Assembly (NCBI RefSeq): GCF_008086045.1
Contig: NZ_VSEY01000009.1
Coordinates: forward strand, 186,001-250,000
Source: Nonomuraea sp. PA05
GTDB taxonomy: Bacteria; Actinomycetota; Actinomycetes; Streptosporangiales; Streptosporangiaceae
DNA: 64,000 nt
Direction: 5' to 3'
The notes under the pieces were generated by a model that saw nothing but the letters and a program-made list of their open reading frames with translations, was not told where the DNA came from and made no database searches. This document shows, piece by piece, positions 53,991-57,800 of the stretch (within the stretch, counting starts at the first letter, position 1; the number at the start of each line of letters is the position of its first letter). The position numbers and the translations under genes were made by a program.

Positions 53991-55412
53991 GGCGCCGAAC
54001 CAGCGCGGCAGCCGGTCGAGCAGCTCCCCCTGATCGTCGCCGGCCCACGCGACGTGACCGTCCGGCCGCAGCAGCACGGCGGGCACGTCCAGCTCCTCGG
54101 CGGCGTCCACGACGTGATCGACCCGATCCGCCCAGCCCGCGACCGACAGCCCGCCCGTCCGGTCGAGCAGCAGCCCACGCCCAGAACGCATCAGCTCGTA
54201 CAGCCGCCGCCCCTGCTTGAGCCGCACGTCCCGCAGGCGCCGCCCGACCAGATCGGGCTCGTCGCCGCCGAAGTCGTACCGGACGCCGATCGCGGTGACC
54301 TTCCCGATGAGCAGCCTGCGCACCTCCTCGAAGTCCATCAGCTCGGCCACCAGCCGGCGCACGGCCTGCGGCCCCGGCTCGGGGGACATCAGCTCCATCT
54401 GCGCCCGGCTGTTGTCCAGCACGTCCGCGGCCACCGGGCGGCGCTCGGCGGCGTAGGTGTCCAGCAGCCCCTCCGGCGCCCACCCGGCCAGCTCGGCGGC
54501 CAGCTTCCAGCCGAGGTTGAACGCGTCCTGGACGCCCAGGTTGAGCCCCTGCCCGCCGGCCGGCGGATGCACGTGCGCCGCGTCCCCCGCCAGCAGCACC
54601 CGCCCGTCGCGGTAGCGTTCGGCCAGCCGGGTGGCGTCGCCGAAGCGGGACAGCCAGCGCGGCGAGCGCGCGCCCCAGTCGGTGCCGACGTAGGCCCGCA
54701 GCCGCCGCTGGAACTCCTCGATGGTCGGCGGGACGGCGCGGTCCTCGGCGACCTCCCCGGCCGGCACGAGGACGCGGTACACGCCGTCCCCGAGCGGCAT
54801 GGCGCCGAACGTGAACAGCGTCTTGCGCACCTCGGCCCCCGCGGCGGCGATCGCCGCCGGGTCGTCGGTCAGCTCCATCTCGCCGAGCAGCATCTCGGTC
54901 CTGGCGGGCTCGCCGGGGAAGGCGACGCCGAGCGCCTTGCGCACCGTGCTGCGCCCGCCGTCGCAGCCGACGAGGTAGCGGGCGCGCAGCCGGGTGCCGT
55001 CGGCCAGCTCGGCGCTCACCCCGTCCTCGTCCTGGCTCACCCCCACCACCTCGCAGCCGCGCCGGATCTCGGCGCCCAGCTCCGCGGCGCGCTCGGCCAG
55101 CAGGCGGTCGGTGACGGGCTGCGGGATGCCGAGGGTGTAGGGGTGGGAGGTGTCCAGGTGGTCGAGCGGGGGCTTGTCGATGCCGGCGAAGTGACCGCGG
55201 ATGGGGTATTTCGTGCCGTGCTCCAGGAACCGCTCCAGCACGCCCCGCTGGTCCATCACCTCGATGGTGCGGATGTGCAGGCCGAGCGAGCGGACGTGCT
55301 TGGCCGGCTCCGCGTCCTTCTCCAGCACGAGTACGCGCACGTCGCGCAGCCGCAGCTCGGCGGCCAGCATCGAGCCGGTCGGCCCGCCGCCGGCGATGAT
55401 CACATCGAACAT
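53979..55412 (-). CDS. rox: Rifampicin monooxygenase-like FAD enzyme (Rox)
   Basis: 477 residues, class A flavin monooxygenase. FAD motif GGGPTG near residue 8, a DG-type [18 protein letters not shown], and the GD motif [20 protein letters not shown]. The stretches [40 protein letters not shown] and [20 protein letters not shown] closely follow, as I recall them, the rifampicin monooxygenases of Nocardia and Streptomyces. It would linearise or decompose rifamycins using NADPH and O2. A rifamycin-associated-element-like palindrome lies 112 bp upstream, which independently supports the call. Confidence 0.87.
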
Positions 55413-55506
55413 GGAATCGCCCGTCCAGTGAGGTTGCTGTTTCGGCCGGCCGCGCAGCCGCGTGCTTTCGTGCCCGCGAATCCGCAGGTCCTGGCCCCAG
55501 CCGTAG

Positions 55507-55557
55507 ATTGTGCGGCACGACCCCGGTCTTGCCGCAAGACCCCCTGTGCGCTATAGC
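55507..55557. promoter_or_regulatory. Back-to-back promoters with -35 boxes inside the RAE
   Basis: Plus strand: TTGCCG (55529-55534), 17-bp spacer, TATAGC (55552-55557) for the P450 operon. Minus strand: TTGCGG (55537-55532), 19-bp spacer, CACAAT (55512-55507) for rox. The two -35 boxes overlap at the centre of the palindrome. Confidence 0.55.
55524..55542. promoter_or_regulatory. Rifamycin-associated element (RAE)-like palindrome
   Basis: GGTCTTGC-C-GCAAGACC is a perfect dyad in a 19-bp element that matches, as I recall it, the RAE found upstream of rifamycin-inactivating genes in actinomycetes. It is centred about 121 bp from both the rox and the P450 start codons. Confidence 0.8.
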
Positions 55558-55654
55558 TTGAAAGTGACGGGGAATGCTGTCACGCCTTGCCCCGGCTGCC
55601 CGGTCAACGTCTCCAGAGCCCCGCTTGCTGACGCGGATTGCAAGGAGACGACAC

Positions 55655-56884
55655 GTGTCCCAGCCCCTTCCCTTCGTCATCGATCCCGCCGGCGCCGACC
55701 GGCACGCCGAGTACCGGGCCCTGCGGGCGCGCGGCCCGGCCACGCCGGTGGACGTCCTCGGCCTGCGCGCCTGGGCGGTCTCCGACCCGGCCCTGCTCAA
55801 GACCCTGCTCACCAGCCCGGACGTGTCCAAGAACGGCCGCGTCCACTACCCGGACTTCCAGGAGACGATCCGCACGTGGCCGCTCGCCCTGTGGATCGAG
55901 GTGCAGAGCATGCTCACCGCGTACGGCGCCGACCATCGCAGGCTGCGGCGGATGATCGCCCCCGCGTTCAGCGCGCGCCGCATCGCCGAGCTGAAGCCGA
56001 CCGTCCAGGCGCTGGTCGCCGAGCTGATGGACGAGCTGGCCGCGGTGCCCGGCGGTCAGGTGGTGGACCTGCGCGAGCGGCTGGCGTACCCGCTGCCCAT
56101 CGCGGTGATCGGCCACCTGATGGGCGTGCCACGGGAGCAGCGCGACGACTTCCGGCAGATCGTCGACAACGTCTTCGACAGCACGCTCACCCCCCTGCAG
56201 GCCCAGGCGAACAACCTGCGCCTGTTCGAGCACATCGAGCAGCTGATCGCCACCAAGCGCGCCGAGCCGGGCGACGACATGACGTCCCTGCTCATCGCGG
56301 CCCGCGACGAGGAGTCCGGCGGCGCCGGCCTCTCCGGCGTCGAGCTGCGCGACACGATGATCCTGATGATCAGCGCCGGGTACGAGACCACCGTCAACGT
56401 CATCGACCAGGCCGTCTTCACGATGCTGTCCTCCCCGGGCCAGCTCGGCCTGGTCCGCGCCGGCAAGGCGAGCTGGGCGGACGTCGTGGAGGAGACGCTG
56501 CGCGCCGAGCCCGCCATCAAGTACCTGCCGCTGCGCTTCGCCGTCACCGACCTCAAGCTGCCCGACGGGCAGGTCATCACGGCGGGAGAGCCCATCCTGG
56601 CCGCCTACGGCGCCGCCAACCGCCACCCGGACTGGCACGGCGCGGACGCCGACACCTTCGACGTCACCCGCCAGGTGAAGGACCACCTGGCGTTCGGCTA
56701 CGGCGTGCACTTCTGCCTCGGCGCCCCCCTGGCCCGCCTGGAGGTGGCCGAGGCCCTGCGCCAGCTCTTCGACCGCTTCCCCGATCTGTCCCTCGCGGCG
56801 CCCGCCGACACGCTGCGCCCCATACCCACCCTTATCAGCAACGGTCACCAGAAACTGCCCGTGCGGCTGCATCCCGCCGGATGA
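55655..56884 (+). CDS. Cytochrome P450
   Basis: 409 residues, bacterial class I P450. I-helix oxygen-binding ISAGYETTVNV, K-helix ExxR in EETLRAEP, and the haem loop FGYGVHFCLGAPLARLE with the thiolate Cys. The GTG start at 55655 has AAGGAG seven bases upstream. No ferredoxin or reductase is adjacent. It diverges from rox across the RAE-like palindrome and its -35 box lies inside it, so it is probably rifamycin-inducible. Substrate unknown; two cupin genes follow. Confidence 0.93.
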   Translation: MSQPLPFVIDPAGADRHAEYRALRARGPATPVDVLGLRAWAVSDPALLKTLLTSPDVSKNGRVHYPDFQETIRTWPLALWIEVQSMLTAYGADHRRLRRMIAPAFSARRIAELKPTVQALVAELMDELAAVPGGQVVDLRERLAYPLPIAVIGHLMGVPREQRDDFRQIVDNVFDSTLTPLQAQANNLRLFEHIEQLIATKRAEPGDDMTSLLIAARDEESGGAGLSGVELRDTMILMISAGYETTVNVIDQAVFTMLSSPGQLGLVRAGKASWADVVEETLRAEPAIKYLPLRFAVTDLKLPDGQVITAGEPILAAYGAANRHPDWHGADADTFDVTRQVKDHLAFGYGVHFCLGAPLARLEVAEALRQLFDRFPDLSLAAPADTLRPIPTLISNGHQKLPVRLHPAG

Positions 56885-56981
56885 CACGCCGCCAGGAGAG
56901 TTGTCACGCGCCGGGGGCGCTGTCTTGTCTGAGCTGTACACGGCCGGACCGAACCGGCCACCGATTCGCGGAGGACCGCTG

Positions 56982-57422
56982 ATGAGCACCGATCACGCGC
57001 ACGGCCACCACCTGGACAATCCCGACAAGAGCGGCCCGCCGCCCAAACTTGACGTGGTCGCCACCGTGCCGGGCGCACCGCCCGCACCGGCGGGCGCAGA
57101 GGCGATGACGATCCTGGTCACGCTGCCGCCCAACAGCCCCGGCGCGCCGCCGCACCGGCACTCGGGGCCCGCCTTCGGCTACGTGCTCAAGGGCGCGATC
57201 AACTTCGAGCTCGAAGGGGACCCGGTGCGGGTCCTGCGGGCCGGCGAGGCGTTCTGGGAGCCCGGCGGGGACGTCATCCACTACCAGGACGGGAACCATC
57301 TGGAGGATGAGGAGTCGGCGTTCGTGGTGACCATGTTCTGCGCGCCGGGGCAGCCGATGCTGGTGCCGGTCAGCGCGGAGGAGCTGGAAGCCCGCCGGGA
57401 TCGGCGCGCGCCCGCGTCATGA
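56982..57422 (+). CDS. Cupin-domain protein (first of two)
   Basis: 146 residues. A single cupin barrel: SPGAPPHRHSGPAFGYVLKG gives the HxH...E-type metal motif 1, and EAFWEPGGDVIHYQDG motif 2. The N-terminus is His-rich (HAHGHHLDNPD). ATG 56982 follows GGAGG. Cupins of this kind are often small oxygenases, isomerases or quercetinase-like proteins; no specific activity can be assigned. It overlaps the next cupin gene by ATGA. Confidence 0.85.
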   Translation: MSTDHAHGHHLDNPDKSGPPPKLDVVATVPGAPPAPAGAEAMTILVTLPPNSPGAPPHRHSGPAFGYVLKGAINFELEGDPVRVLRAGEAFWEPGGDVIHYQDGNHLEDEESAFVVTMFCAPGQPMLVPVSAEELEARRDRRAPAS

Positions 57423-57751
57423 CCAAGGTGACGCTGACCGCGCTCGTCCGCGACCTGGTCGAGCGGGCCCGCCAAGCCGACAGCGGCCGCAGCGCCACCA
57501 CCGTCCACGGCGGGCACGACCGCTCGCTGCGGCAGACCGTGATGGCGTTGCGGCAGGGCGAGCACATCCACGAGAGCGAGCATCCCGGCGAGGTGACGGT
57601 GCACGTCCTGCACGGGCGGGTCCGGCTGGTCGCCGGGGGCGACTCCTGGGACGCGCTGCCGGGTGATCTGCTGGTGATGCCCGATCGGCGGCATCGGGTG
57701 GAGGCTGTGCGGGATTGCGCGTTTCTGTTCAGCACGGCGCGCTGCAGGTGA
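57419..57751 (+). CDS. Cupin-domain protein (second of two)
   Basis: 110 residues with one cupin barrel: LRQGEHIHESEHPGEVTVHV is motif 1 and LPGDLLVMPDRRHRVEAV motif 2. The fold matches small cupins sometimes annotated as LuxR-associated or mannose-6-phosphate isomerase-like. It is translationally coupled to the preceding cupin (ATGA) and is the last gene of the P450 operon, followed by a strong terminator four bases after the stop. Confidence 0.83.
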   Translation: MTKVTLTALVRDLVERARQADSGRSATTVHGGHDRSLRQTVMALRQGEHIHESEHPGEVTVHVLHGRVRLVAGGDSWDALPGDLLVMPDRRHRVEAVRDCAFLFSTARCR

Positions 57752-57754
57752 GAC

Positions 57755-57800
57755 AAGGCCACCGGCCACCCTCGGAGACGGGGGTGGCCGGTGGCCTTTT
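57755..57800 (+). terminator. Rho-independent terminator of the P450-cupin operon
   Basis: AAGGCCACCGGCCACC (57755-57770) and GGTGGCCGGTGGCCTT (57783-57798) form a perfect 16-bp stem with a 12-base loop and end in TTTT. It is the clearest intrinsic terminator in the window. The following 57801-57920 shows no coding or structural signal. Confidence 0.92.

Follow-up and report, generated by a model that had tools for sequence, protein, structure and literature searches.

Does a rifamycin-associated element (RAE) that lies between a rifamycin resistance gene and a divergent cytochrome P450 gene place the P450 under rifamycin control? The question is raised by a stretch of Nonomuraea sp. PA05 (contig NZ_VSEY01000009.1, positions 186,001 to 250,000; this whole stretch of 64,000 nucleotides, from a genome of 13.1 Mb, is called the window). 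In it, the rifampin monooxygenase gene rox (53979-55412, minus strand, 477 aa) and the P450 gene (55655-56884, plus strand, 409 aa) diverge from an RAE, and the P450 gene is followed by two cupin genes, cup1 and cup2. An earlier note had suggested a wider rifamycin response that takes in the P450 and the cupins. The anatomy, conservation and synteny of the locus indicate that it probably consists of two side-by-side regulatory units, a complete RAE and a P450-cupin-cupin unit with ECF41-like elements, which are connected by incidental read-through at most.

The RAE core palindrome GGTCTTGCCGCAAGACC occupies 55525-55541 and matches the RAE definition (CTTGC.GCAAG with GG/CC arms) exactly. It is symmetric around 55533, perfect apart from the single centre base, and its centre coincides with the midpoint (55533.5) between the rox start at 55412 (minus strand) and the P450 start at 55655 (plus strand), as the earlier note had described. 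The core is located 112 bp from the start of a gene that is recognized as a rifamycin resistance gene: rox scores 863.8 bits against NF033145, the NCBIfam profile for rifampin monooxygenase (curated cut-off 800), and its closest solved structure is the rifampin monooxygenase 5vqb (E 6.2e-215). Scanning the window for the palindrome gave one exact match, and four other sites carry 3 mismatches. Genome-wide, GGNCTTGCNGCAAGNCC has two exact sites, one in the rox/P450 region and the other upstream of helR (HelR model 1317 bits, cut-off 750). In 54 genomes of the genus, the RAE pattern was found at 90 sites versus 10 for a reversed control pattern (rows summed). A chance palindrome is ruled out by these genome, window and genus counts together with the counts from the fetched sites given below, and the proposal of a real RAE before rox is borne out.

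The palindrome forms the -35 region common to two promoter-like sequences that face apart. Toward rox, the -35 box TTGCGG (55532-55537, minus strand, read 55537-55532) is followed after a 19-bp spacer by the -10 box CACAAT (55507-55512, minus strand, read 55512-55507). Toward the P450, the -35 box is TTGCCG (55529-55534, plus strand). These overlapping -35 boxes supplied by the two arms, as well as the rox-side pair, are present as had been noted. On the P450 side, the previously named TATAGC is also there, 17 bp from TTGCCG and with its TATA at 55552-55555, but the hexamer that is conserved elsewhere is the overlapping TAGCTT (55554-55559, plus strand), with a spacer of 19 bp; the predicted outward +1 is the G at 55566 (plus strand). 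The RAE bidirectional module as defined in this analysis, with both -10 boxes at 19 bp, is present in the window. Both RAE loci of the genome have a promoter-like sequence directed away from the resistance gene, and at helR it leads directly into a strong hairpin that carries a T tract. A consensus scan of 55400-57900 found no sigma-70 promoter; it allowed spacers of 16-18 bp and restricted the hexamers, settings that exclude the RAE promoters. An already known RNA family is ruled out, as no Rfam match was obtained at E <= 1 in five loci.

RAE-core sites were collected from the genus (match in 48 of 54 genomes) and from a class-wide sample (match in 179 of 394 genomes), with extra loci from 29 genomes picked for known RAE matches. 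The site sample consists of the fetched loci, with at most 30 loci per search, and only part of the matching genomes contributed. The fetched loci contained 152 sites, and 150 unique sites were left when 2 duplicates were removed. A resistance gene follows the core in 146 of the 150 (helR 60, rox 33, rgt 28, rph 17 and arr 8), so that the exact core marks rifamycin resistance genes specifically. Gene classes rest on tblastn comparison with a single reference per class, with some low identities (helR 35-37% in part of family f4); the HelR, Rph and Arr references are over their curated cut-offs, and the Rgt reference is the best match yet below the cut-off (531 versus 800). The 146 sites span 13 families by the labels of the tool, and 70 of them, nearly half, come from the genus of the window. 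Orientation was set by the resistance gene alone. The 4 sites without such a gene (L080, L162, L163 and L186) were left unoriented, and their listings display no module.

Both promoter-like halves are kept at nearly all of these 146 sites. The gene-facing NANNNT, with two fixed letters, stands exactly 19 bp from TTGC[CG]G in 146/146, and the outward TANNNT on the opposite strand keeps precisely this distance from the mirror -35 in 144/146, the two exceptions (L135 and L179) resembling one-base shifts. When the outward pattern was displaced by -12 to +4, it fitted 0 or 1 site. The outward TATA is found at 123 sites and the outward +1 is G at 141, while the gene-facing -12 is C, a non-consensus letter, at 140. 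When each of the 13 families is given the same weight, 1.5 bits or more is reached beyond the searched core at -12, -11, -7 and +1 of the outward half and at -12, -11, -9 and -7 of the gene-facing half, together with -9C, -1G and 17C. The direction of the upstream gene was judged by codon periodicity in 173 modules (70 toward the RAE, 52 away, 48 unclear, 3 too short), and the outward TATA was present in 61 of the 70 and 42 of the 52, respectively. By these sequence counts, the putative outward promoter is independent of a divergent gene and of the upstream-gene direction, and the RAE looks like a symmetric bidirectional promoter. Because the outward half is generic, the P450-facing promoter at this locus is not special.

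As a control, rox genes were found by protein similarity, which gave 49 usable upstream regions. The core was located within 330 bp in 36 of them, and both -10 boxes were present in 36/36; the -10 letters had a part in choosing the best site per region, and the two sets have some sites in common. In these 36 regions the palindrome is also conserved outside the common -35 (C3 and G13 in 36/36, the outer GG and CC in 35-36/36), and such conservation of the arms beyond the -35 boxes favours a bound dimer. A whole-module pattern, which included both -10 boxes and is no test of them, was scanned over named genomes and gave at least 119 stretches with at least 124 matches. Among the matches listed, 117 of 124 precede the five gene classes (tblastn), and of 116 of these 117, 95 carry the unrequired outward TATA and 109 the +1 G. 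The seven other matches listed lie before an efflux gene (L275), on the second strand of the counted sites L283 (rox) and L322 (arr), on both strands of L319, and at stretch ends (L296 and L363). The idea that the whole-module pattern is more specific than the core for resistance genes was dropped (117/124 among the matches listed versus 146/150).

The P450 unit carries promoter-like elements of its own. The sequence TGTCAC-N17-CGGTC is located at 55578-55605 (plus strand) before the P450, and TGTCAC-N16/17-CGGTC precedes the P450 in 9/9 close orthologues of the genus (81-100% identical), one of which begins with CGTCAC. The 97-bp gap between the P450 and cup1 holds TGTCAC-N17-TTGTC (56902-56929, plus strand), and a TGTCAC element before cup1 was observed in 5/5 genomes compared, which are those where cup1 was found behind the P450. 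The three genes had been described as an operon that ends in a strong terminator. The terminator is there (57757-57800, plus strand, 18-bp stem, -43.8 kcal/mol, followed by TTTT), but cup1 has its own conserved promoter-like element. The form TGTCAC-N16,17-CGGTCAAC occurs once in the genome.

ECF41 target promoters have the consensus TGTCACA, 16 +/- 1 bp, CGTC (PMC3426412), and the elements of the P450 unit resemble them in the TGTCAC -35 and the spacing and differ in the -10, which is CGGTC or TTGTC here. The P450 element itself reads TGTCACG, with a fitting spacing and CGGTC instead of CGTC. The curated cut-off of the sigma factor model TIGR02957, which we take to correspond to ECF41, is exceeded by 8 genes genome-wide. 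A partial TIGR02957-type sigma gene with an internal stop (G000:C121:252023-252610) was also observed about 10 kb past the P450. TGTCAC-N17-CGGTC is found again at 62960-62987 (minus strand), about 34 bp before the lipase-hydrolase genes at 61183-62926, which possibly share the sigma regulon of the P450.

Among the 9 close P450 orthologues of the genus, only 2 lie next to rox and an RAE. In G166 the order is tetR-rox, RAE, P450-cup1-ssf, with rox and P450 about 90% identical to those of the window; its RAE is one outer base off the exact pattern and the outward promoter-like half is kept. The P450-facing promoter-like sequence sharing the RAE, which the earlier note had pointed out, is therefore found in a second species. 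G180 has tetR-nmo next to P450-cup1-cup2, with ssf further along, and lacks rox and the RAE core. P450-cup1-cup2 and ssf also occur in G190 and G189, where rox and the RAE core are missing from 13 kb, and in the remaining four genus orthologues the RAE core is absent from 4.2 kb; one of the orthologues without a core, that of G185 (87% identical), is in a genome without any exact RAE. For P450 orthologues 78-82% identical in other genera (L006-L009), no rox match and no exact RAE core were found within about 1.5 kb on either side, which rules out the P450 as a general partner of rox. The simplest reading of this synteny is that rox and its RAE arrived beside an existing P450 locus, rather than being lost elsewhere.

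In many lineages the outward transcript would start with a hairpin. A stem score of at least 7 was obtained for 88/173 modules (shuffled mean 4.6), and the signal is marked in family f18 (8.1, n=17). A nine-pair stem was examined in 52 hand-chosen rows (54 selected from hairpin-rich families, minus L124, L078 and L090, plus L001), a choice that favours the hairpin. Its cells are paired in 85.7% versus 50-64% for slid stems, with 25 versus 11-21 both-side-changed cells and a covariation score of 0.262 versus 0.115-0.190. The stem is no better than slid ones on pairs changed on both sides (6 versus 4-8; 194 of 500 shuffles reach 6) or on further pair types (16 versus 15-20). Retention of a terminator at this place would be a sign that the outward start is in use. 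Where many RAEs have this terminator-like hairpin, the window has a weak 7-bp hairpin without a T tract (55564-55583, plus strand), and shuffles of its 59-nt stretch fold at least as well (z 0.66, compared with -3.83 for L001). The hairpin with a T tract, which is frequent and not universal in RAE modules, is absent from the window. Because the hairpin here is short, weak and without a T tract, RAE read-through toward the P450 is possible, and it looks incidental.

The RAE is known as a 19-bp palindrome that stands ahead of rox, helR and further genes for rifamycin resistance and overlaps the gene-facing -35 (PMC10719064, PMC8655204, PMC10194278 and PMC12802891). The element described here is alike in the palindrome, in the position before resistance genes and in the overlap with the gene-facing -35. 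The published accounts covered give the palindrome only, and the present description adds a putative outward promoter, spacers of 19 bp in mirror image and the hairpin. Literature on RAE, HelR and related terms, a scope outside which the primary RAE papers lie, does not mention an outward promoter in the parts covered. In the Bacillus subtilis helD/pps alarm a second promoter also stands beside the resistance gene's own, with a helD-type target, but these promoters are convergent and separated (PMC12802891), whereas those of the RAE face apart and overlap fully with a palindromic -35 in common. Bacterial bidirectional promoters (PMC12825309) likewise have mutually exclusive polymerase orientations, and control by the MerR-type SoxR was studied at one of them. 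They share the -10 and their divergent starts are mostly 18 bp apart, whereas in the RAE it is the -35 that is shared, and the predicted starts are placed far from each other on its two sides. How rifamycin is sensed through the RAE in actinobacteria has been posed as an open question, with the regulator unidentified, in the parts of PMC10719064 and PMC12802891 covered. The wider result makes the sensing mechanism testable, and a conserved outward promoter on the palindrome offers single-base targets for telling regulator-based from polymerase-based sensing.

A working model with two units can be proposed. In the first, the palindrome would serve as the common -35 of two promoters that exclude each other, one directed at rox and the other outward, and a dimeric rifamycin-responsive regulator would probably sit on the palindrome and govern both. 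In many lineages the outward promoter would fire into the hairpin or terminator. The second unit would be P450-cupin-cupin, with the ECF41-like elements before the P450 and cup1. In the lineage ancestral to this genome and one relative, rox and its RAE would have come beside the P450, with a weak outward hairpin. Read-through from the RAE may add some rifamycin-linked transcription of the P450, and the P450 and cupins would mainly answer an extracytoplasmic function (ECF) signal. We put forward, more tentatively than the division into two units, that the RAE is more than an operator, that the outward half of this symmetric two-way promoter, conserved in the sampled class with all five known resistance gene types and often aimed only at a terminator, functions as part of the rifamycin sensor, and that it has been captured here by a P450-cupin unit lacking the terminator in between.

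The earlier proposal, that the P450 and cupins form a dedicated part of the rifamycin regulon which the shared RAE switches on for the processing of Rox products, appears quite improbable. The outward promoter is intact in both genomes where rox adjoins the P450, and no T-tract hairpin lies between it and the P450; both points count in favour of this proposal. However, the outward -10 is equally present in 144/146 RAEs, the P450 unit has its own ECF41-like element in 9/9 genus orthologues, and 7/9 of these lack an RAE core beside the P450. Where divergent genes flank an RAE, this position alone does not qualify the second as a resistance gene, a point that averts a wrong annotation. Another explanation concerns the sensor: RNA polymerase itself could sense the drug if the outward promoter captured it and silenced the gene-facing one, and rifamycin-bound polymerase upset this competition with no need for a transcription factor. 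The conservation of an outward promoter that frequently has no gene to drive and of the non-consensus C at the gene-side -12 (140/146) would suit this explanation, as would the rifampicin alarm formed by two convergent promoters at B. subtilis helD. The same alarm makes polymerase-only sensing less likely, because induction was abolished when the promoters were so close that polymerases clash (PMC12802891), and the RAE promoters overlap fully. Furthermore, the TATAAT match fails to show that the outward promoter is stronger, the palindrome arms are conserved past the need of two -35 boxes, and a polymerase stalled on the outward promoter is expected to block the gene-facing one, not to free it. 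We consider this explanation unlikely. About as unlikely, or slightly more so, is that the conserved upstream block belongs to a larger regulator site or to a sense promoter P1 instead of an outward promoter. A sense P1 upstream of the RAE has been reported for M. smegmatis helD (PMC10719064), but the most conserved letters coincide with -12, -11, -7 and +1 of an outward promoter whose spacing mirrors that of the gene-facing one, and no sense -35 at a fixed distance was seen by eye in the site listings.

Several observations weigh against the reading of two side-by-side units with a two-way RAE. The evidence is at the level of sequence. On the RAE side, the M. smegmatis P1 is reported to have its start some 20 bp ahead of the RAE (PMC10719064), which the model leaves unexplained. 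The gene-facing -10 test is weaker than the outward one because NANNNT also fits 46/146 sites at +3 and 13 at +2. The outward -10 is not clearly the stronger one: the mean number of its TATAAT matches is 3.3 (19 bp) or 3.9 (17 bp) versus 3.9 for the gene-facing -10, and the outward TATA is absent from all 8 arr sites. No RAE core was found within 330 bp of 13/49 rox-like genes. The hairpin support is uneven, with no excess in family f4 (4.5 versus 4.4 shuffled), and RNAalifold found no consensus fold on alignment A1. On the P450 side, the motif is found in 1/4 orthologues outside the genus and 0/2 remoter P450s, its CGGTC mismatches the ECF41 CGTC at -10, and no TIGR02957 sigma gene was matched inside the window. 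The choice between gain and loss of rox is based on few genomes.

The P450 and the two cupins had been named correctly. The P450 belongs to PF00067, and its nearest solved relative is CYP154A1 (1odo_A, 615 bits; runner-up structure 264.5 bits), a full-length likeness judged by bit score. The gene cup1 (56982-57422, plus strand, 146 aa) encodes a Cupin_2 protein (PF07883, 44.4 bits), and cup2 (57419-57751, plus strand, 110 aa), which overlaps the cup1 stop, scores 26.8 bits with PF07883, slightly below the cut-off of 27.2. The genome has a second rox-like gene (G000:C57:84255-85691, L234), 65% identical and scoring 755.8 bits with NF033145 (cut-off 800), whose 330 bp upstream lack the RAE core. 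Upstream of Rox paralogues without an RAE, a conserved frame of 17-19 residues beginning MNAVSMWVLPLPVTAG was observed in 9/10 loci examined (L241-L243, L248 and L250-L253, and L234 of this genome from 1140), and it is possibly an attenuation leader peptide.

Further RAE modules were observed in other settings. In Actinoplanes aureus (L275, 99-151) a full module precedes a DHA2/EmrB-type major facilitator superfamily efflux gene (frame 121-1797; best NCBIfam match OtrB, 221 bits, below cut-offs), a candidate for a new class of RAE-controlled gene outside the five classes. In the proteobacterium Stenotrophomonas maltophilia, RAE-like modules match on both strands at L322 (1922-1974) and L319 (125-177), and an arr-like gene (58% identical) begins 114 bp downstream of the former. 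Modules are also found in metagenome-assembled genomes labelled Gemmatimonadaceae (rox-like genes, 44-47% identical) and Chloroflexi (rph, 72%) (L283, L285 and L324), for which transfer, wider spread and mis-binning are alternatives. Finally, a leader block of approximately GGCCGAGGCCAGAACCTGCGGAA is conserved downstream of the RAE, past the gene-facing -10, in several families and at many rox and helR loci.

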